From positions 1-40,702 of the forward strand of contig DAHUYD010000036.1 of the NCBI GenBank assembly GCA_027315385.1: DNA of 40,702 nucleotides, read 5' to 3'. Under the pieces are notes generated by a model. That model made no database searches and was not told the origin of the DNA. It was given only the letters and a program-made list of their open reading frames with translations. Below, one piece after another: positions 1,956 through 10,993 of the stretch (position 1 is the stretch's first letter; each line of letters opens with the position of its first letter). The translations under genes and the position numbers were made by a program. The DNA is from Acidobacterium sp. (GTDB lineage: Bacteria; Acidobacteriota; Terriglobia; Terriglobales; Acidobacteriaceae).

Positions 1956-4681
1956 AACCAGCATTGCCATGGAGCACAGCTGCGCGCGTAGCGTGGAGAG
2001 AACTGCGGGCTGGCAAGGCGAAGTTCCTTTTCGTCCTGCTTTCGGTTGCCGTGGGGGTGGCGGCGCTCACCGGTGTTCGGGGATTCAGCGATTCGTTTTC
2101 CCGGGCGCTGCTGGAGCAGGCGCGCAGCATTATGGCGGCGGATGTATCGGCGCGGATGTTCCGTCAACCGACAGCCCAGGAGGCCCAGCGGCTGCAGGCG
2201 CTGAAAGCGAAGGGCGTGCGCGAAACCACGGTGACGGAGACGCTGTCGATGGCGATGGTAAAGGGCGATCCGATCCCGCTGCTTGTCTCGTTGAAGGCAG
2301 TGAATCCCGATGAGTACCCGTTCTACGGAACGGTGGTACTGTCGGCGCACGGCGGAAGCACCGCGCAGACGGGTGGCCCGAGCCTGCATGACGCGCTGGC
2401 GAATGGGACGGTGGTGGTGGATGACAACCTTCTGGTTCGGCTGCGTGCGAACGTGGGCGACGAACTGAAGGTTGGTGATGAGTGGTTCCGGATTGCGGCC
2501 GTGATCGAGAAGGAACCGGACCGCCTCACCGCCGGTGTGGGGCTGGGGCCGCGTGTGATGATGACGCGCGTGGGCCTCGATCATTCCGGGTTACTGCAGC
2601 CGGGCAGCCGGGCGAATGAGCGATATCTGTTCGCAGTGGAGAACCAGCAGAGCATGGACCAGGTGAAGACGGAGGTGGAGAAGATTCTGCCCGACGCGCA
2701 GGTGACCGACTACCGGGAGGCAAGCCCGGAACTGACGCAAGGCCTGGATCATGCGACGGGGCTGCTAAGCCTGATTTGCCTGGTGGCGATGGTGTTGGGG
2801 GCGATCGGTGTGGCGATGGCGATGCGCGCGCACCTGCAACAGCGGATCGAGGTTTTGGCGATCATGAAGTCCGTGGGCGCACGGTCAGCGGACATTCTGC
2901 GAATTTATCTGCTGCAGACGCTGTTTCTGGGCGTGACGGGAGCGCTGATCGGCATCGGGCTGGGGCTGGGCGTGGAATACGCGTTGCCGGTGTTGCTGGG
3001 CAAGCTGCTGCCGCTGCATCCGGCGATCCGTTTGCCGCTCGATCCGGTGCTGGCGGCTCTCGGGACGGGGGTACTGACGACGGTGCTCTTTTGCCTGCCT
3101 CCGCTGCTGGATGTGCGGAGGGTGCGGCCTGTTCTGGTGCTGCGCAGGACGGTGGAGAGCGGTGAACAATTCGCAGGCGCTCTTCGCTTCCGTGCGGCTG
3201 CTATTTGCTGCTTGATTTGTGCCGTCGTGGTTGCGATTGTGAATCTCATTATTCGGCATCCGCACTGGAGCATACCGGGCGCTCTTTTCGGCTGTTTTCT
3301 GCTCTTGAGCGTGGATTACGGCCAGTTGCTGCGAAGCGCGCTGTCGCACAAACTGCAGATCGCTTCGATTGTCGTTATCCTCGGTGGTCTGGGCGGCATT
3401 GCGGCGGGGCTGGCGGATTCTGTGCTTGTGGGCAAGTGGTTCGCCATCTGCCTGGCGGGCGTGCTGGCGGTCCTGCTTGGGCTGTCGGCGGCCACGCTGC
3501 GCGGACTGCGGTCGTTTCTGTCGCGGACACGGTTACGACTGCACTCCGTCTTGCGGCATGGTCTTTCGAATTTATACCGGCCGGGGAACCAGTCGGCGGC
3601 GGTGCTGGCGGCGCTGGGCGCGGGGGTGATGCTGATTCTGTGCGTCTTTCTCATGCAACGGTCGGTCGTCGCTTCGCTGCACGAGGACGTGAAGCCGGAG
3701 ACGCCGAATGTGTTCCTGATCGACATGACCACGGACGAGTTGCCGGGGATACGCGCGCTGCTCCGGAAGCAGAAGGGCGTGATCGCGGGGCTGGAGACGA
3801 TCCCGGTGGTGGCGGGGCGGGTGGAATCGATTGGGGGAACTCCGGTAGATCAGTTGAAGCTGAAGAATTATCCGAAGCGTCTGCTGCGTTCGGCCAATCT
3901 GTCGTGGTCGGGAGCGGTTCCGTCAGGGACGAAGGTTGCGGAAGGGAAGTGGTGGAGTGCAGGCAGCCACGAGGCCGATCTCGCGGTGGTCGATCACGTC
4001 GCCGAGCGGCTGCACCTGAAAATTGGGACGCCGCTGACCTTTGTTGCCGGGCAGAAAACGATCGCAGTGAAAGTGGCGGCGATCTACAGAATCGCCGGTG
4101 AACACCCGTTTGCACGGAGCGAGTTCGTGATGCCGGAGGCGCTGCTCGCCGGTCAACCTGTGGTGTGGTACGGCGACATTCACGCGAAGGCCGATGCAAT
4201 TCCGGATGTGGAGCGGGCGCTCTTCGCGGCTTATCCAACGGTGACTGTGATCAACATCGCAGACATCGTGGAGACTATCCAGGGGGTGGTAGACCAAATC
4301 ACTCTGGTTATTCGCTTTCTCGCGGGATTCTCAATTCTGTCCGGGCTGATCATCCTGGCGTCGAGCGTGGCCGGGACGCGTTTTCGGAGGATCCGCGAAG
4401 TAGTGGTGCTGAAGACGCTGGGCGCGACGCGGCGGCGGATTGCTGCGGTGTTCAGCGTGGAGTTTGCGGTTCTGGGATTGCTGGCCGGCGCGGTAGGAGT
4501 TTTATTTGCGAACCTTTTGACGCATATTTTGCTGCACCGTATGGATTTGACGTTCCATCGCGATGTACGAGGGTCAGTGGCTGCGGTGGCGGCGACGGCA
4601 CTGCTGGCTGTGATGACCGGATGGATCGCGAGCTGGCGGATTCTGGGGCAGAGGCCGCTGGAGGTGCTGCGCGAGGAGTAG
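1952..4681 (+). CDS. ybbP: FtsX-family ABC permease, YbbP-like
   Basis: About 909 residues. An N-terminal transmembrane helix (~25-45) leads to a large periplasmic domain. An FtsX block with several helices follows at ~260-390 (including IEVLAIMKSVGARSADI), then a central group of helices (~410-520), a second extracytoplasmic domain, and a C-terminal FtsX block (~780-905, with REVVVLKTLGATRRRI). The duplicated FtsX domains and the length above 800 residues match YbbP rather than LolC/E or MacB. It is coupled to ybbA by an ATGA overlap. Likely role: ATP-driven mechanotransmission or lipid/lipoprotein handling at the inner membrane; the substrate of YbbAP-type systems is not settled. Confidence 0.88.
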   Translation: MKPALPWSTAARVAWRELRAGKAKFLFVLLSVAVGVAALTGVRGFSDSFSRALLEQARSIMAADVSARMFRQPTAQEAQRLQALKAKGVRETTVTETLSMAMVKGDPIPLLVSLKAVNPDEYPFYGTVVLSAHGGSTAQTGGPSLHDALANGTVVVDDNLLVRLRANVGDELKVGDEWFRIAAVIEKEPDRLTAGVGLGPRVMMTRVGLDHSGLLQPGSRANERYLFAVENQQSMDQVKTEVEKILPDAQVTDYREASPELTQGLDHATGLLSLICLVAMVLGAIGVAMAMRAHLQQRIEVLAIMKSVGARSADILRIYLLQTLFLGVTGALIGIGLGLGVEYALPVLLGKLLPLHPAIRLPLDPVLAALGTGVLTTVLFCLPPLLDVRRVRPVLVLRRTVESGEQFAGALRFRAAAICCLICAVVVAIVNLIIRHPHWSIPGALFGCFLLLSVDYGQLLRSALSHKLQIASIVVILGGLGGIAAGLADSVLVGKWFAICLAGVLAVLLGLSAATLRGLRSFLSRTRLRLHSVLRHGLSNLYRPGNQSAAVLAALGAGVMLILCVFLMQRSVVASLHEDVKPETPNVFLIDMTTDELPGIRALLRKQKGVIAGLETIPVVAGRVESIGGTPVDQLKLKNYPKRLLRSANLSWSGAVPSGTKVAEGKWWSAGSHEADLAVVDHVAERLHLKIGTPLTFVAGQKTIAVKVAAIYRIAGEHPFARSEFVMPEALLAGQPVVWYGDIHAKADAIPDVERALFAAYPTVTVINIADIVETIQGVVDQITLVIRFLAGFSILSGLIILASSVAGTRFRRIREVVVLKTLGATRRRIAAVFSVEFAVLGLLAGAVGVLFANLLTHILLHRMDLTFHRDVRGSVAAVAATALLAVMTGWIASWRILGQRPLEVLREE

Positions 4682-5228: not shown

Positions 5229-6191
5229 CTACCCTGCCGGCGTGCCCAGAACCTTCACCACCTCACTCACCAGTTCGTCCGGAACAAACTTCGCGACGTA
5301 TCCATCCGCTCCCACCTTGCTGGCGTGCGCCGCATTGGCCGAGCCCGACAGGGAAGAGTGAATGACCACCGGCACGGACTTCATGCCCTCGTCCTCCTTC
5401 ATCTGCCGCGTGAGCGTGAAGCCATCCATTTCGGGCATTTCCAGGTCGGTAAGCACCATCGCCACCTTTTCTCGCAAAGGAACTCCGGCGGCCCGGGCTT
5501 CGACGGCGAAGCTCTTCAGCCGGTCCCAGGCCTCCCTGCCCGTCCTGGTGCCGACAAATGGCAGCCCGAGCTTGCTGAGAACGGTTTCAATCTGACGGCG
5601 CGCCACGCTGGAGTCGTCCGCGTAGAGAACCACAGCACCCTCAGGCATATGGATGGTCGGCAGACGGGTGATCTCCTCGCCGCTCCTGAAGCGGAACGGC
5701 AAAGCCTCCCTGAGGATGGATTCAACGTCCAGTATCAGGGCGAGGCGAGCGTTTTCCTCCTGATCGTCGAGTCTGGCAAGGCTGGTCACAAGGGATCCGG
5801 CCGCGGATTTTTCGGCGGAGACGACCCGGCTCCATTCCAGGCGCACGATTTCCTCGACTTCTTCGACCGCAAACCCCTGAACCGAACGCTCATATTCGGT
5901 CACGAGGAGGATATTGAATGCCTGCGGCGTGCAGCCAACCACCGACGGAAGATCGATGACCGGAATGATCTGCCCGCGAATATTGGCGACACCCAGGACG
6001 TGCTTCGGCGAACCCGGCATGGGCGTAATGGAAGGCATCATCAGCGCTTCCCGCACTTTGAAGACGTTAATGCCAAAGATCTCCCGCGAGTGCGAGTTGT
6101 TGTCTTCTCCGAGGCGGAAGATCAGGAGCTCGAACTTATTCGTGCCCGCTAATTTCGATCTTTCCTCAATTTCCCGCATCACGTCGCTCAT
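5229..6191 (-). CDS. cheV: CheV-like chemotaxis coupling protein (CheW domain plus receiver)
   Basis: About 320 residues. A CheW-type domain (~15-165) carries the motif [15 protein letters not shown]. It is joined to a response-regulator receiver (~195-315) with an intact phosphorylation site: acidic pair in LYADDSS, phospho-acceptor Asp in [11 protein letters not shown], Ser in IHSSLSG and Lys in VAKF. CheV proteins couple receptors to CheA and use phosphorylation for adaptation. The start at 6191 has GGGGAGG 5 bases upstream and lies 26 bases inside the end of the receptor gene, so translation is coupled. This is the last gene of the cheA operon and supplies its only receiver domain, so it must act as adaptation element, phosphate sink or output unless an unlinked CheY exists. 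Confidence 0.9.
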
Positions 6192-7611
6192 GGCCAGCCT
6201 CCCCGGTTTTGCTGTCACTGACGGCCGCGCCCAGCGCGTCAAGTTTATCGAGCAGTTCCTGCTCGATCCGCGAGATTTCTCCGCCCAGCCGCATGGCTTC
6301 CTCGCGTTCCCCGGCCTTCAGCATCACGCGAAGATTTCGCGCGCTCTGGTAAAGCGAGGCCAGAGGGGCCTCGATCTCCTGAAATTCCGGGGACTGTCCC
6401 CAGGAATCTTTGCCACTGCCCTCGAACCATCGAGCAAAGCTGCACTGATGATGGTCCGGCGTGTTGTCAGGAGCCGCCGCTGCGGCGCGCTCAGACAGTT
6501 CCGCCAGCACGTTGCGTACAAAAATCTTGGTCTCGTTCTTCGCCGAGTCGACATTCATCTGCGCAACCAGCGCGTGGAGCGAGCGGACGCGCGTTCCGAG
6601 CGACAAGGTCACCGACTCCGCTCCGTGCGCAGACTGTTCCGCCGAGTGGCTGGTCTTCTCGATCGATCTGGCCGAACGATCGATGTCGGTAATGTTACGC
6701 TGCACTTCTTCTGTCGCCTTCTGAACGCGCTTCGAAAGATTGCGCACTTCGTCGGCGACAACGGCAAACCCGCGCCCGTGCTCCCCGGCGCGAGCCGCCT
6801 CAATTGCGGCATTCAGGGCGAGAAGGTTGGTCTGATAGGCGATCTCGCGAATCGTCTGCGCAATCCGGCCGATCGCGCCCACCTGCGCGATAAGTTCCTG
6901 CGATGCCTTGCGGCTGTCGGCTACTGATTGGGCGAGGCCTCCCAGCGTGCCTCCCACCGCTTTCATCGCGCGGTCGGTTTCCTCTGCCACCCCCATCAGG
7001 GACTCCGCGTTCCCCGATGCCGCCGTGCTCATTTCGGCGATAACATGTTCGGCGAGTTTCGCGTCGCTGAGATTGCGCCAGGAGGCGTGAATGGCAATCA
7101 CCTTGTTCTCGCGGTTGCGCACGGGCGCAAAATCCAGACCGAACGTCACTCCGCCCAGGGTGACCTCAGTGCTGTGGCAGCCGGAAGGCTCAGTCATCAG
7201 CTTTCTGATGATGTCGCGAATGCGCTCGGGATCCTGGTGAAACTGATGGATGGACCGCCCATGAGCATGGCGAACGTCAGCACCCCTCAGGCCTGCATTC
7301 AGTCGCTTGTGATTCAGCGACATGGTTTCGAGAGCCGCGCGATTCATGTAGAAAATCGCATTCTCCATGCGGTCGTCCGCTTCGCACAGCATCTCCAGGC
7401 TGGAAAGCGGCTCAAGGAGGGCCCGGGCGTGATCGAGCAACTGCTGCTTCTCGGCTCCCTGGGGCCGGGCAGAGGGCAGTGCCGCGCGCCCTGCCTGGGC
7501 TCCCGCTCTTCGCGCCCGGCCTGCGAATTTGCCGGTCTGCGCCGGCGGTTTGGAGCCCCGCGACGGTTTGCTGCTTTTCCTTGGTCGAGTCCTGACAGCC
7601 ACTGTGGCCAT
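6166..7611 (-). CDS. Soluble PAS-containing chemoreceptor with C-terminal CZB-like domain
   Basis: About 481 residues with no transmembrane segment, so cytoplasmic. In order: a basic low-complexity N-terminus (~1-55); a PAS-like domain (~60-175, with [11 protein letters not shown] and a closing [16 protein letters not shown] strand); a methyl-accepting signalling domain whose tip is well conserved ([19 protein letters not shown] then [12 protein letters not shown]); and a C-terminal region resembling the chemoreceptor zinc-binding (CZB) domain around [15 protein letters not shown]. The CZB Cys is kept, but the positions where I expect ligand histidines appear to hold other residues. There is no CheR-tethering pentapeptide at the C-terminus. 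The start at 7611 follows GGAGGAAGC; an upstream in-frame ATG at 7647 is less likely. The odp gene ends only 13 bases upstream, so they are co-transcribed. Confidence 0.9.
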
Positions 7612-7624
7612 AATGCTTCCTCCC

Positions 7625-8383
7625 TCAGCGCGCAATCGCGCTCCCAACGGTTAGTCCTTCGAACCAATCCAGAAATCGCTTAACGTTTTCGCCGGCGTAG
7701 ATCGCCCCATGCTGGGGGCAGAGCATGTCGATCTGGAGCTGGCGAACGCGATCGATCCAGTCCAATTTCGCGGAGTTCGACGGCATCCATCGCTGGTGAA
7801 AGTACTTCGCGTGCTGGATGTGCTCATCGAATCCTCTGACCGATTCCGCTCCTCGTCGGCCGCCCACCCAGATCCCGTGGCCCGGGGGGAGAAGCGCCGC
7901 TCCAACGTCCCCGCAGAAGAGCACCTTTGCTTCAGGGTCGTACAAGTGAAAATTGGCGGAAGCGTGCAGGTAGTGCGCAGGGATAAAATCCAGCCTGCGG
8001 TCGCCAAGCATCATGGAGCCGCCCTCGTCCGGGATGCAGACCATCTCGGCGTCCAGCGCGCCGTAGTGACGGATGAACCCTTCCCAGAGGCCGGGAACCT
8101 GCCACTGGATGTTGTTGTTACAGGCGTTCCACAAGGGCAGGCTGGACGCTATATCCGGGTCCTGGTGGGATACGAATGCCTTTCGGACCGAGGTGGGCGG
8201 CACAACCTCGGCCACTGCGGCCAGGACCTGAGGAAAGATTTCGAATCCTCCGGGATCGAGTACGGCGCTCTGCCCGCTCGACTCGACGACATAGACGTTC
8301 GAATCGATCACGCGCCGTTCATCCTGGTCGAAAAGAACCCACCAGCGATGGGTTCCCGTTTCAAACACCGGTTCCGCTCTCAT
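7625..8383 (-). CDS. ODP-like diiron protein, metallo-beta-lactamase fold (candidate oxygen/iron sensor)
   Basis: About 252 residues with the fold of the flavodiiron/metallo-beta-lactamase family but no flavodoxin domain. Candidate metal ligands are His73, Asp75 and Asp77 (in [10 protein letters not shown]), His140 (in HYLHASANF), Asp159 (FCGDVG) and His225 (CPQHG). The motif reads HxDxDI instead of the usual HxExDH. That pattern, and its place between a cheA and a chemoreceptor, match the ODP (oxygen-binding diiron protein) family, described in Treponema denticola as an Fe(II)/oxygen sensor for chemotaxis. It has no transmembrane segment. The start at 8383 has a strong GGAGGAGGT site and overlaps the upstream gene by 23 bases. 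Alternative: a metallohydrolase without a sensory role; operon context argues against that. Confidence 0.82.
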
Positions 8384-8981
8384 GCAGCACCTCCTCCAGC
8401 TTTCCGCGATAGGTCCAGATCGCCTCCCGCACCTTGGTTACCGCCAGCCCCATCTCGTGCGACACGCGCATGAGCGGGGCGCCGGTGCGCTCGGAAAGGG
8501 CGGCTTCGATGCGACCGTTGGTCACGACGTACTCCTGCTCGGCAATGCCTTCCTGGAGCCGGATCACCGTATCGATGAGCTGCCGCAGGATGGTCACGCC
8601 TTCGTCTTCCTCGGCATCGATATCTCTCCGCCAGTGTTTTTCGGAGTTGCAGAGGAACTCGAGAGCCCGCTTTCTGCCGGTTGTGGCCTGTGCCGAGCGA
8701 CGGAACATGCCGCTGAACTGCTCATGCTGGAGAATCTGCATATACACCCGCACAAGCGGAGCGATAGACTGCTGCAGCGGATTCGCGGCATCTTTAAGAA
8801 GCACTGCCTGCTCCCGAAACGCCTGTGCGACAACTCCGTAGCCGGCCAGCGTGTTTCCGTTCCGCTTGACGAGAACCATGGCATTCAGCGCGCGCCGGTC
8901 GATCTCTCGCAGAGATTGTTCGATGGTTCGCCGCGTGCGGTGGGAAGCGTCCATGATCGCCATAATGCGGTGAATGTTCAT
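8361..8981 (-). CDS. Small helical protein with degenerate chemoreceptor-tip motif
   Basis: About 206 residues, predicted almost wholly helical, without membrane segments. I do not recognise it as a named family. Residues ~28-60 (REIDRRALNAMVLVKRNG, then GYGVVAQAFREQ) align by eye with the MCP hairpin tip, [12 protein letters not shown]...[11 protein letters not shown]: the ALNA, R.G, Gly, VVA and final Arg positions agree, while the acidic residues of the tip are lost. It may be a truncated or diverged receptor-like adaptor. Translation is coupled to cheA by an ATGA overlap (8978-8981), with AGGGAG upstream, and to odp by a 23-base overlap. That wiring suggests it works in the same complex, for example linking ODP to CheA, but this is inference. 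Confidence 0.75.
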   Translation of the reverse strand: MNIHRIMAIMDASHRTRRTIEQSLREIDRRALNAMVLVKRNGNTLAGYGVVAQAFREQAVLLKDAANPLQQSIAPLVRVYMQILQHEQFSGMFRRSAQATTGRKRALEFLCNSEKHWRRDIDAEEDEGVTILRQLIDTVIRLQEGIAEQEYVVTNGRIEAALSERTGAPLMRVSHEMGLAVTKVREAIWTYRGKLEEVLHESGTGV

Positions 8982-10636
8982 CCTTGCTCCCTCGATGCGG
9001 CAGCGCTCAGCGCGCCAGCATCCAGAATCAGCACGACATTTCCTCGTCCGGAGATGGTCGCGCCCTGATAGAGATTGCCGCTGGACAGAAAATCGATGGG
9101 CTTGACTACGGAGTCCTCGTTGCCAAGAACCTCGGAAACGACAAACACGCCCCGCTCCGTAAGCACGCCCTCGACGTTTTCCGCGCCCAGGCGCAGCGGA
9201 CGATGCTGCAGGACAGACCCGAGATCGACGAGCGGAACCGTTTGCGTACCGTCGACGCGATAGCTGGTACGGCCAGCCAGACGGTGCACTCGATGTTCTT
9301 CGAGGTCGACCAGGCTGTCGATGGCCGAGATCGGCAAAGCATAGGTCTCCTGGCGCAGCCGCAGATAGAGCACCGGCAGCACAGCCATGGTCAGGGGAAA
9401 GTCCATGGAGATGCTCGTGCCGCGGCCCGGTTGTGTCTCGATGCACAAGCGGCCGCGCAGCCTGTCCGTGGTCTGTTTGACCACGTCCATTCCCACCCCG
9501 CGCCCGGAAAGCTCCGATGCCTCTTCCCTGGTGGAAAACCCAGCGCGGAAGATCAGTTCCAGCGCGTCCTGATCGGATAGATGGGCCGCCTGCATTTCGG
9601 TGATGATTCCCTTTTCGATGGCTTTCCGAGTCACCAGCACCCGGTCAATACCCTGACCGTCATCTGAAACCTCAATCCGGACGCGAACGCCCAGGTGAAC
9701 CGCGGCAATGCGCAGTACTCCGGCTGCCGGCTTGCTGGCGCGCCTCCGAACCTCCGGCATTTCGATTCCGTGGTCGAGGCTGTTGCGGACCAGGTGCACG
9801 ATCGGGCCCGACAGCGCATCGACCACCGCCTTGTCGATCTCAACCTCTTCGCCGGCCATTTCGAGACGGACTTCCTTATCCAGCTGGCGCGACACGTCCC
9901 GAACCACGCGTGGCAGTTGCTGGAAGAGCCGCCGGCACGGCTGCATGCGCAGGCTCATTACGCTGCTCTGCAGGTCGCTGACCCGCAGATCCATCTCGCG
10001 GGCGATGCGCATCATATTCTCGTCGTCTTTTCTCAGGCCGCCCAGCGCCGATGTCAACCGGTTGCGGAGCAATACCAGCTCCCCAACCTGATTCATGACC
10101 GCATCCAGGCGCGTGGCATCCACGCGCAGCATTGTTTCCGCGGTGACTGCAGCCCCGGCGGGAGCATTGGGGAGGGCCGCGCCGCCGTGGGATTGCGCGA
10201 TGTGTCCGTCATCGCCGGCCGGAGGTGCCGTGTCTGGAAGAGGCGGCGCCGAATCGACTTCCGCCAGTGCGCGGATTCTGCTGCTCATCTCCGCGGGTCC
10301 GCGGCGCGGCACCTGCTCCTTCGCCAGATCTTCAAACATCTTTCCAATCGTGTCGATGCCGCCCAGAATCGCATCGATGCGCTCCGGCGTTACCGCCAGG
10401 CTATGGGAGCGCAACTTGTCGAGGAGTTCCTCCAGATTATGGGCCCAGTCGACCAGATGCACGGCGTCGAGAAAGCCCGCGCCGCCCTTGATTGTATGAA
10501 AGGCTCTGAATATCGAGGCCAGCGCCTGCTCATCGCTCGGGTCCGATTCGAGCTGAAGCGTATCTTCCTGAGCCTTTTGCAGGAGCTCCCTTGACTCGAC
10601 CAGGTAGTCCTGGAGGATCTCGATGTCCATGGCCAC
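8978..10636 (-). CDS. cheA: Chemotaxis histidine kinase CheA
   Basis: About 552 residues. Domain order: Hpt (~1-105) with phospho-acceptor His47 in FHTIKGGAGFL; a linker with no evident CheY-binding P2 domain; the dimerisation helices (with MNQVGELVLLRNRL); HATPase with NSLDHGIE, DDGQGID and GRGVGMDVV; and a C-terminal CheW-like domain (~410-548). It phosphorylates a response regulator in reply to receptor signals. The likely start is GTG at 10636, six bases after GGGAG, although ATG at 10630 is also possible. It is the first gene of a five-gene overlapping minus-strand operon. The short length fits loss of P2 and is unusual beside classical CheA proteins of about 650 residues. Confidence 0.93.
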   Translation of the reverse strand: MAMDIEILQDYLVESRELLQKAQEDTLQLESDPSDEQALASIFRAFHTIKGGAGFLDAVHLVDWAHNLEELLDKLRSHSLAVTPERIDAILGGIDTIGKMFEDLAKEQVPRRGPAEMSSRIRALAEVDSAPPLPDTAPPAGDDGHIAQSHGGAALPNAPAGAAVTAETMLRVDATRLDAVMNQVGELVLLRNRLTSALGGLRKDDENMMRIAREMDLRVSDLQSSVMSLRMQPCRRLFQQLPRVVRDVSRQLDKEVRLEMAGEEVEIDKAVVDALSGPIVHLVRNSLDHGIEMPEVRRRASKPAAGVLRIAAVHLGVRVRIEVSDDGQGIDRVLVTRKAIEKGIITEMQAAHLSDQDALELIFRAGFSTREEASELSGRGVGMDVVKQTTDRLRGRLCIETQPGRGTSISMDFPLTMAVLPVLYLRLRQETYALPISAIDSLVDLEEHRVHRLAGRTSYRVDGTQTVPLVDLGSVLQHRPLRLGAENVEGVLTERGVFVVSEVLGNEDSVVKPIDFLSSGNLYQGATISGRGNVVLILDAGALSAAASREQG

Positions 10637-10993
10637 GTCCCGCTCCCTATATCGACCAGGATAGGGGTGGCATTAAGCGCTGGAGGTATCCTGCGCGCGA
10701 CCGGAGAAGCGTGGGATGGCAGCCCCCCCGGGGACCATGCAATGGTTCATCCAGCGACGCATGCTCAATGGCGAAACGCCCTCACGGCGAATCCGGAGCT
10801 TAACTTGCGTTTTTGGCGCGGTCACAGCACGCTGAACCCCCGGTCCAATTTGCCAGGGCCACAGATTCCTTTGTCTTTTCTCATTTCAGAACTAGAATTC
10901 AGAGAGACTCGCGACGATCCATCCTGGGGAAGCAAGAAGGGATGGTCCATCAACGTTCCCGGTCGTGGGCGGCGTTAGTCCTCTAGCTTGTTC
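10637..10993. other. Divergent intergenic region, cheA / psd
   Basis: A 357-base gap between divergent operons. It must hold the promoters for cheA (minus) and psd (plus). I can propose only the plus-strand one, listed separately. There is no convincing coding potential on either strand and no tRNA-like or repeat structure. Confidence 0.5.
10870..10898 (+). promoter_or_regulatory. Possible sigma70-type promoter for psd
   Basis: TTGTCT (10871-10876) and TAGAAT (10893-10898) are separated by 16 bases and match the housekeeping consensus at 4 and 5 of 6 positions. The pair lies about 95 bases before the psd start. A motif this short can occur by chance. Confidence 0.3.

Follow-up and report, generated by a model that had tools for sequence, protein, structure and literature searches.

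Oxygen-binding diiron proteins (ODPs) that act as sensors of iron and oxygen and are encoded together with chemoreceptors have already been published for several phyla (Muok 2019), and deletion of the ODP of Treponema denticola alters CheA ordering (PMC7666581). Here we describe five tightly packed genes that encode CheA, a small protein (P0002), an ODP, a chemoreceptor (P0004) and CheV on the minus strand of positions 5229-10636 of contig DAHUYD010000036.1 (assembly GCA_027315385.1), from the soil bacterium Acidobacterium sp. The whole contig of 40,702 nucleotides was analysed and is called the window below. The explanation that we favour, with some reserve, is that these genes are the sensing half of a chemotaxis system, gained laterally from an Acidithiobacillus-type acidophile, kept as one operon and working as proposed in the following sections.

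The operon and its ODP

The window protein is, judged from its sequence, a true member of the ODP family with an intact metal site. It scored 217 bits against Pfam PF19583, which has a metallo-beta-lactamase-like fold (cut-off 27.2 bits, E 2.8e-64), and it matched the solved ODPs 6qrq (E 3e-60) and 6qnm (E 3e-45). The diiron ligand set H-x-D-x-D, H, D, H is complete. H140 and D159 were invariant in the 56 aligned ODPs and H225 in 55 of 55, one sequence ending before the last His. The Pfam score, the matches with solved ODPs and the conserved ligands confirmed the proposal of an earlier note, made from the bare sequence, that an ODP-like diiron protein stands with CheA in a phylum far from Treponema. 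This protein is predicted to load iron and to bind oxygen.

All five reading frames are intact. The cheA and P0002 genes overlap by 4 nt, P0002 and ODP by 23 nt, and P0004 and cheV by 26 nt, a gap of 13 nt being found between ODP and P0004. Promoter and terminator scans of the operon gave scores at the level of shuffled sequences and carry no information on co-transcription.

Coordinates in the window of the operon genes and of their main sequence features
Feature	Position	Strand	Description
cheA	8978..10636	-	552 aa; Hpt (His47), dimerisation, ATPase and CheW-like domains by Pfam
P0002 (two-tip, predicted single-chain receptor protein)	8361..8981	-	206 aa, soluble; predicted ODP partner; alignment and AlphaFold2
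Tip motif 1 of P0002, residues 31-58, ALNAMVLVKRNGNTLAGYGVVAQAFREQ	8808..8891	-	N381- and R388-equivalents kept, without E385; column counts
Tip motif 2 of P0002, residues 148-180, EQEYVVTNGRIEAALSERTGAPLMRVSHEMGLA	8442..8540	-	E385-equivalent kept, without R388; column counts
ODP (oxygen-binding diiron protein)	7625..8383	-	252 aa; Pfam PF19583
ODP metal ligands H73, D75, D77 (HQDPD)	8153..8167	-	invariant in 56/56 aligned ODPs
ODP metal ligands H140, D159, H225	7707..7966	-	conservation in ODP alignment
P0004 (soluble chemoreceptor: PAS, MCP signalling domain, CZB-like end)	6166..7611	-	481 aa; Pfam
PAS domain of P0004, putative Aer2 heme type	7057..7404	-	candidate heme ligand His125, Trp178; phmmer to Aer2
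CZB-like domain of P0004	6340..6522	-	two of four expected zinc ligands lost
cheV	5229..6191	-	320 aa; CheW-like domain and receiver, Pfam

A scan of 84,980 species genomes for ODP led to 52 loci. The order of the operon recurs in four acidobacterial metagenome-assembled genomes (loci L026-L029) and in about 30 loci of acidophiles; cheA, the small gene and ODP keep this order in those four, in Acidithiobacillus, Thiomonas and Acidihalobacter and in related metagenome-assembled genomes, and the PAS receptor and cheV usually come next. The cluster of five genes is thus not due to chance, as its recurrence in dozens of genomes confirms, and the reading of the arrangement as a one-off is not supported: it belongs to a widespread operon type of acidophilic Proteobacteria. 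The candidate explanation of an orphan cluster unique to the window genome was rejected on the same ground. A gene of about 205 codons homologous to P0002 lies directly 5' of every ODP of this type that has a complete neighbouring gene (50 loci), with an identical overlap of 23 nt in many of them. In Acidithiobacillus the operon is preceded by flgM-flgN-csrA-motB-cheY-cheZ, cheA coming after them, and because these upstream genes are flagellar or encode CheY and CheZ the parent system is taken to be one of flagellar chemotaxis. No cheY was found beside cheA in the acidobacterial copies.

Some loci showed other arrangements. In L073, tandem ODP genes (7244-7993 and 7995-8732) follow one P0002-like gene. 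In L062, L064 and L071 the P0002-like/ODP pair lies within larger chemotaxis operons, near genes for a methyl-accepting chemotaxis protein (MCP), CheW, CheR and CheB that were read by eye, and L071 holds two copies of the P0002-like gene. ODP-like matches at E 1e-15 were obtained in only 16 of 297 sampled genomes of the phylum. Other ODPs, more remote ones from this phylum, at L011 (1462-2217), L012 (1459-2214), L014 (1486-2238) and L016 (1414-2250), occupy a different gene setting, their neighbours being a Roadblock/LC7 protein, a receiver protein (which in one case ends in a DUF4388-like part) and a ParA/MinD-type ATPase, together with a histidine kinase in L014. This setting may be a separate ODP signalling module without a chemoreceptor.

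A putative soluble array with its own kinase

P0004 scored 104 bits against Pfam MCPsignal and has no transmembrane stretch. Its PAS domain matched that of Pseudomonas aeruginosa Aer2 by phmmer (3vol, E 3e-9; 4hi4, E 4e-8), and the 3vol alignment pairs the FHxxP His and the Trp of Aer2 with those of P0004. We take this Aer2 His to be H234 in the Aer2 numbering. The heme ligand of Aer2 is H234 (PMC13401364). Most operon homologues retain both His125 and Trp178, and the PAS domain of P0004 may therefore be a heme PAS of the Aer2 type and the second predicted oxygen sensor of the module besides the ODP. In the Acidithiobacillus receptor of L034 (4842-6155) a Tyr replaces the His that would bind heme, and the receptors of L046 and L059 carry a PAS domain of another type. 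The soluble PAS-MCP-CZB-like layout that had been read in P0004 was borne out, except for the zinc site of its last part: the CZB match stayed below the Pfam cut-off (23.0 vs 29.4 bits) and the site of three His and one Cys is incomplete. The second His pair, HxxxH, is replaced in the window and in L028, and is intact in L027, L029 and the acidithiobacilli.

The cheA product contains, according to Pfam, an Hpt domain with its His, H-kinase_dim, HATPase_c and CheW, and its N and G boxes are present. No recognisable P2 domain was found in it, and P2-less CheAs are common (PMC10542144). The linker between P1 and P3 is about 100 aa shorter than in Acidithiobacillus and Thiomonas. Most CheAs with a neighbouring cheY (e.g., L031, L033 and L055) carry in this linker one or two copies of the motif I[ST]xxEFExxLDxLYG, which is absent from the CheA of the window and of five other loci without cheY (L026-L029, L036). 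Since the motif resembles the C-terminal peptide of the adjacent CheZ, it is possibly a CheY-docking motif. The tie between its loss and that of cheY is suggestive only.

CheV has a CheW domain followed by a Response_reg domain with the acidic pair, the phospho-Asp, and the Thr/Ser and Lys motifs, and it has no output domain. The claim that the only receiver of the operon lies in CheV is therefore upheld, with active-site residues intact. As for the absence of CheR, CheB and CheY, also claimed before, it holds within the cluster and beside it but not for the whole genome. Contigs C87 and C61 carry two further che clusters of this genome, each with its own CheA, and CheR and CheB were recognised by eye in the translations of these clusters. 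Flagellar FlhA and many receivers are encoded in this genome as well.

Most likely, then, the module is a soluble and self-contained array in which a single CheA is fed by two predicted oxygen inputs, CheV being both coupler and only local phospho-acceptor. The ODP would bind iron and oxygen and pass the signal to its partner P0002, and P0004 would read oxygen separately via its Aer2-type heme PAS. The two signals would meet at the CheA of the operon, with the CheW domain of CheV as the link. In turn, CheA would phosphorylate the receiver of CheV, which would damp or tune the array, and an effect on motility, if there is one, would have to depend on a receiver from another locus of the genome. 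Some data pull the other way: certain loci with cheY likewise have CheAs without the linker motif, the window genome is an assembly of 194 contigs that is 91% complete, and in T. denticola the role of the ODP may be peripheral to the array (PMC7666581).

A different output was also considered, in which the array steers something other than motility (cyclic di-GMP, stress or pili) with CheV as its only phospho-acceptor. The absence of the parent's CheY and CheZ and the loss of the CheA linker motif agree with this, and the two other CheA systems of the genome could run the flagella. However, flagellar genes and other receivers are kept in the genome, CheV is devoid of an output domain, and the parent operon is flagellar. 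On balance we regard such an output as unlikely, while giving it more weight than the other alternatives weighed below.

Two tip motifs in P0002

Since a search of the 297 phylum genomes with P0002 returned only its own genome, its relatives were gathered through the ODP loci, and the column counts given here rest on the resulting alignment of 36 relatives (A1). P0002 scored 17.5 bits against MCPsignal, under the Pfam cut-off of 34.6, and for this reason it is called MCP-derived and not an MCP; an MCPsignal match of some kind (E up to 1) was obtained for 31 of the 36 relatives. The whole-protein profile of the family found TM14 of Thermotoga maritima (3g6b) via its N-half, with an E of 7e-11. 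When the profile of the C-half was used alone, its four best PDB matches were MCP tips, TM14 (3g6b, E 3e-7) being in register at NA-x-IEAA. The N-terminal motif is clearly related to MCP tips. The C-terminal motif NGRIEAAL-GAPL-RVS aligns without gaps to it, and the IEA of tip 2 is as well conserved among the relatives as tip 1.

The two tips differ at the residues of a known contact, the ionic lock E385-R388' that joins dimers in receptor trimers (PMC8144572). In Tsr numbering, tip 1 of the family has Glu at 385 in none of the 36 sequences and Arg or Lys at 388 in 32, whereas tip 2 has Glu at 385 in 35 and Arg at 388 in a single one. Ordinary MCP tips of the same loci have both (E385 in 58/58 and R388 in 57/58). 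While MCPs are homodimers with one tip per chain, the sequence of P0002 carries two tip motifs per chain.

AlphaFold2 models of P0002 (predicted local distance difference test, pLDDT, 90.4; predicted template modelling score, pTM, 0.81) and of a remote relative with less than 20% identity to it (pLDDT 87.5, pTM 0.76) were compared with known structures. Designed single-chain four-helix bundles superpose on 176 residues of the P0002 model (2.1-2.4 A), and the model of the remote relative aligns with 117 of the 120 residues of single-chain ROP (1.8 A) and with all 127 residues of sc-apCC-4 (2.1 A). The structural argument lies in this full-length coverage and not in Z values, as high Z is common among helical bundles. 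P0002 is thus predicted to be a single-chain four-helix bundle, and both tips must turn for it to superpose on such bundles. A Foldseek search by itself returned nothing below E 0.001, and the superposition program was needed. No MCP dimer appeared among the top structural matches, single chains being what was compared.

From these alignments and models it seems rather probable that the family of about 205 residues encoded before ODP is a single-chain pseudo-dimer, asymmetric, with the Glu/Arg contact split between its hairpins, and specialised in relaying the ODP signal to the CheA array. In the proposed mechanism P0002 would be a receptor stub that unites two MCP tip hairpins in one chain, so that one molecule would replace a receptor dimer, and the contact between dimers would be made by Arg from one P0002 tip and Glu from the other.

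We give little credence to the alternative that P0002 is a decayed single-tip receptor like TM14, forming an ordinary homodimer, with a C-terminal motif that is coiled-coil background. What speaks for it, and against a two-tip chain, is that TM14, the best PDB match, was solved as two identical chains, that Pfam scores the N-terminal tip alone in P0002 itself, and that DSSP found no break at tip 1 in either of the two models. Coiled-coil proteins also inflate repeat scores. Against the alternative, the N-half and C-half profiles scored 24.2 when aligned with each other, more than any of 100 heptad-preserving shuffles (19.6 at most) or the reversed control (14.6). In addition, the C-half profile retrieved MCP tips first and in register, the IEA of tip 2 is conserved to the same degree as tip 1, and both models fold as single-chain four-helix bundles. 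Of the previous description of P0002 as a degenerate MCP-tip protein, the relation to MCP tips therefore stands, but the TM14 matches of both halves and the repeat score indicate two tips and not one.

Probable lateral origin and comparison with known systems

In a four-protein tree, the five acidobacterial operons formed one clade (Shimodaira-Hasegawa-like approximate likelihood ratio test, 100) nested in the Acidithiobacillus type. Keeping the Acidithiobacillus-type sequences together was rejected (approximately unbiased, AU, test, p 0.03), and the direction of transfer is settled only modestly by this tree. A tree of ODP alone did not settle this direction, as other rootings were not rejected (AU p 0.26-0.47). 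No ODP was found in a genome of the same genus that is 99% complete, and its similarity to the window ends at 4677, the end of an ftsX-like gene, and takes up again at 10868, next to psd, on a different contig. For these reasons the operon is considered an accessory island. The acidobacterial copies sit in unlike surroundings, the base composition of the operon matches that of the host, and neither the flagellar genes of the parent operon nor cheY and cheZ are beside the acidobacterial island. A contaminant contig was also considered and rejected (flanking pssA 92% identical to that of the same-genus genome; G+C 0.616 vs 0.607). The operon is, most likely, a sensor array that came in laterally without the CheY, CheZ and flagellar genes of its parent. 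That it is instead vestigial, recently acquired and decaying without function in this host, is very improbable: the lost CZB zinc ligands, the absent CheY and CheZ and the same-genus genome without the operon would fit, but the five reading frames are intact, neither the ligands of the ODP nor the catalytic motifs of CheA nor the receiver residues have been lost, the base composition is host-like, and a single clade of five acidobacterial copies persists in differing gene neighbourhoods.

To judge by the searchable literature, what appears new is above all the predicted two-tip receptor with divided contact residues, then the combination within one operon of ODP and an Aer2-type receptor with CheA and CheV, and the probable transfer of that operon into Acidobacteriota; part of this may already stand in the founding ODP paper. 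How receptor dimers use their asymmetry, one subunit being turned to the trimer axis and the other to CheA/CheW, is hard to study because the two subunits do not differ from each other. If this reading is true, a natural chain bearing two unlike tips would allow each role to be mutated separately. The operon would also be a compact soluble system that has a kinase of its own, is predicted to sense oxygen by two chemistries, diiron and heme, and stands near the oxidation of iron and sulfur by acidophiles. It would further be a case of a chemotaxis sensor array that moved between phyla without its flagellar outputs.

The operon of Acidithiobacillus and Thiomonas (cheY-cheZ-cheA-tip-odp-PAS receptor-cheV) has the same order as that of the window, with 66-75% identity in ODP and 40-64% in the two-tip protein. 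It differs in that CheY and CheZ are present, CheA carries linker motifs, a further CZB receptor is usually encoded, and flagellar genes lie upstream, as seen in Acidithiobacillus. P. aeruginosa Aer2 (PDB 3vol, 4hi4) resembles P0004 in the matching FHxxP His and Trp of the PAS domain, whereas in P0004 one PAS stands immediately ahead of a short MCP domain, the end is CZB-like and heme binding is predicted. T. maritima TM14 (PDB 3g67/3g6b) is, like P0002, soluble, sensorless and of about 210 aa, and is the best PDB sequence match to both P0002 halves; in contrast, one tip was detected in it, in the middle of the chain, and it was solved as two identical chains. Finally, T. denticola encodes its ODP (TDE2498) with the cytoplasmic receptor TDE2496 (Muok 2019; PMC7666581), so that there, as in the window, an ODP is encoded with a sensorless, membrane-free MCP homologue and coupled to CheA, in the window by prediction. 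However, T. denticola has one CheA and its receptor joins the main array, whereas the ODP of the window has its own CheA, a predicted heme-PAS receptor and CheV.

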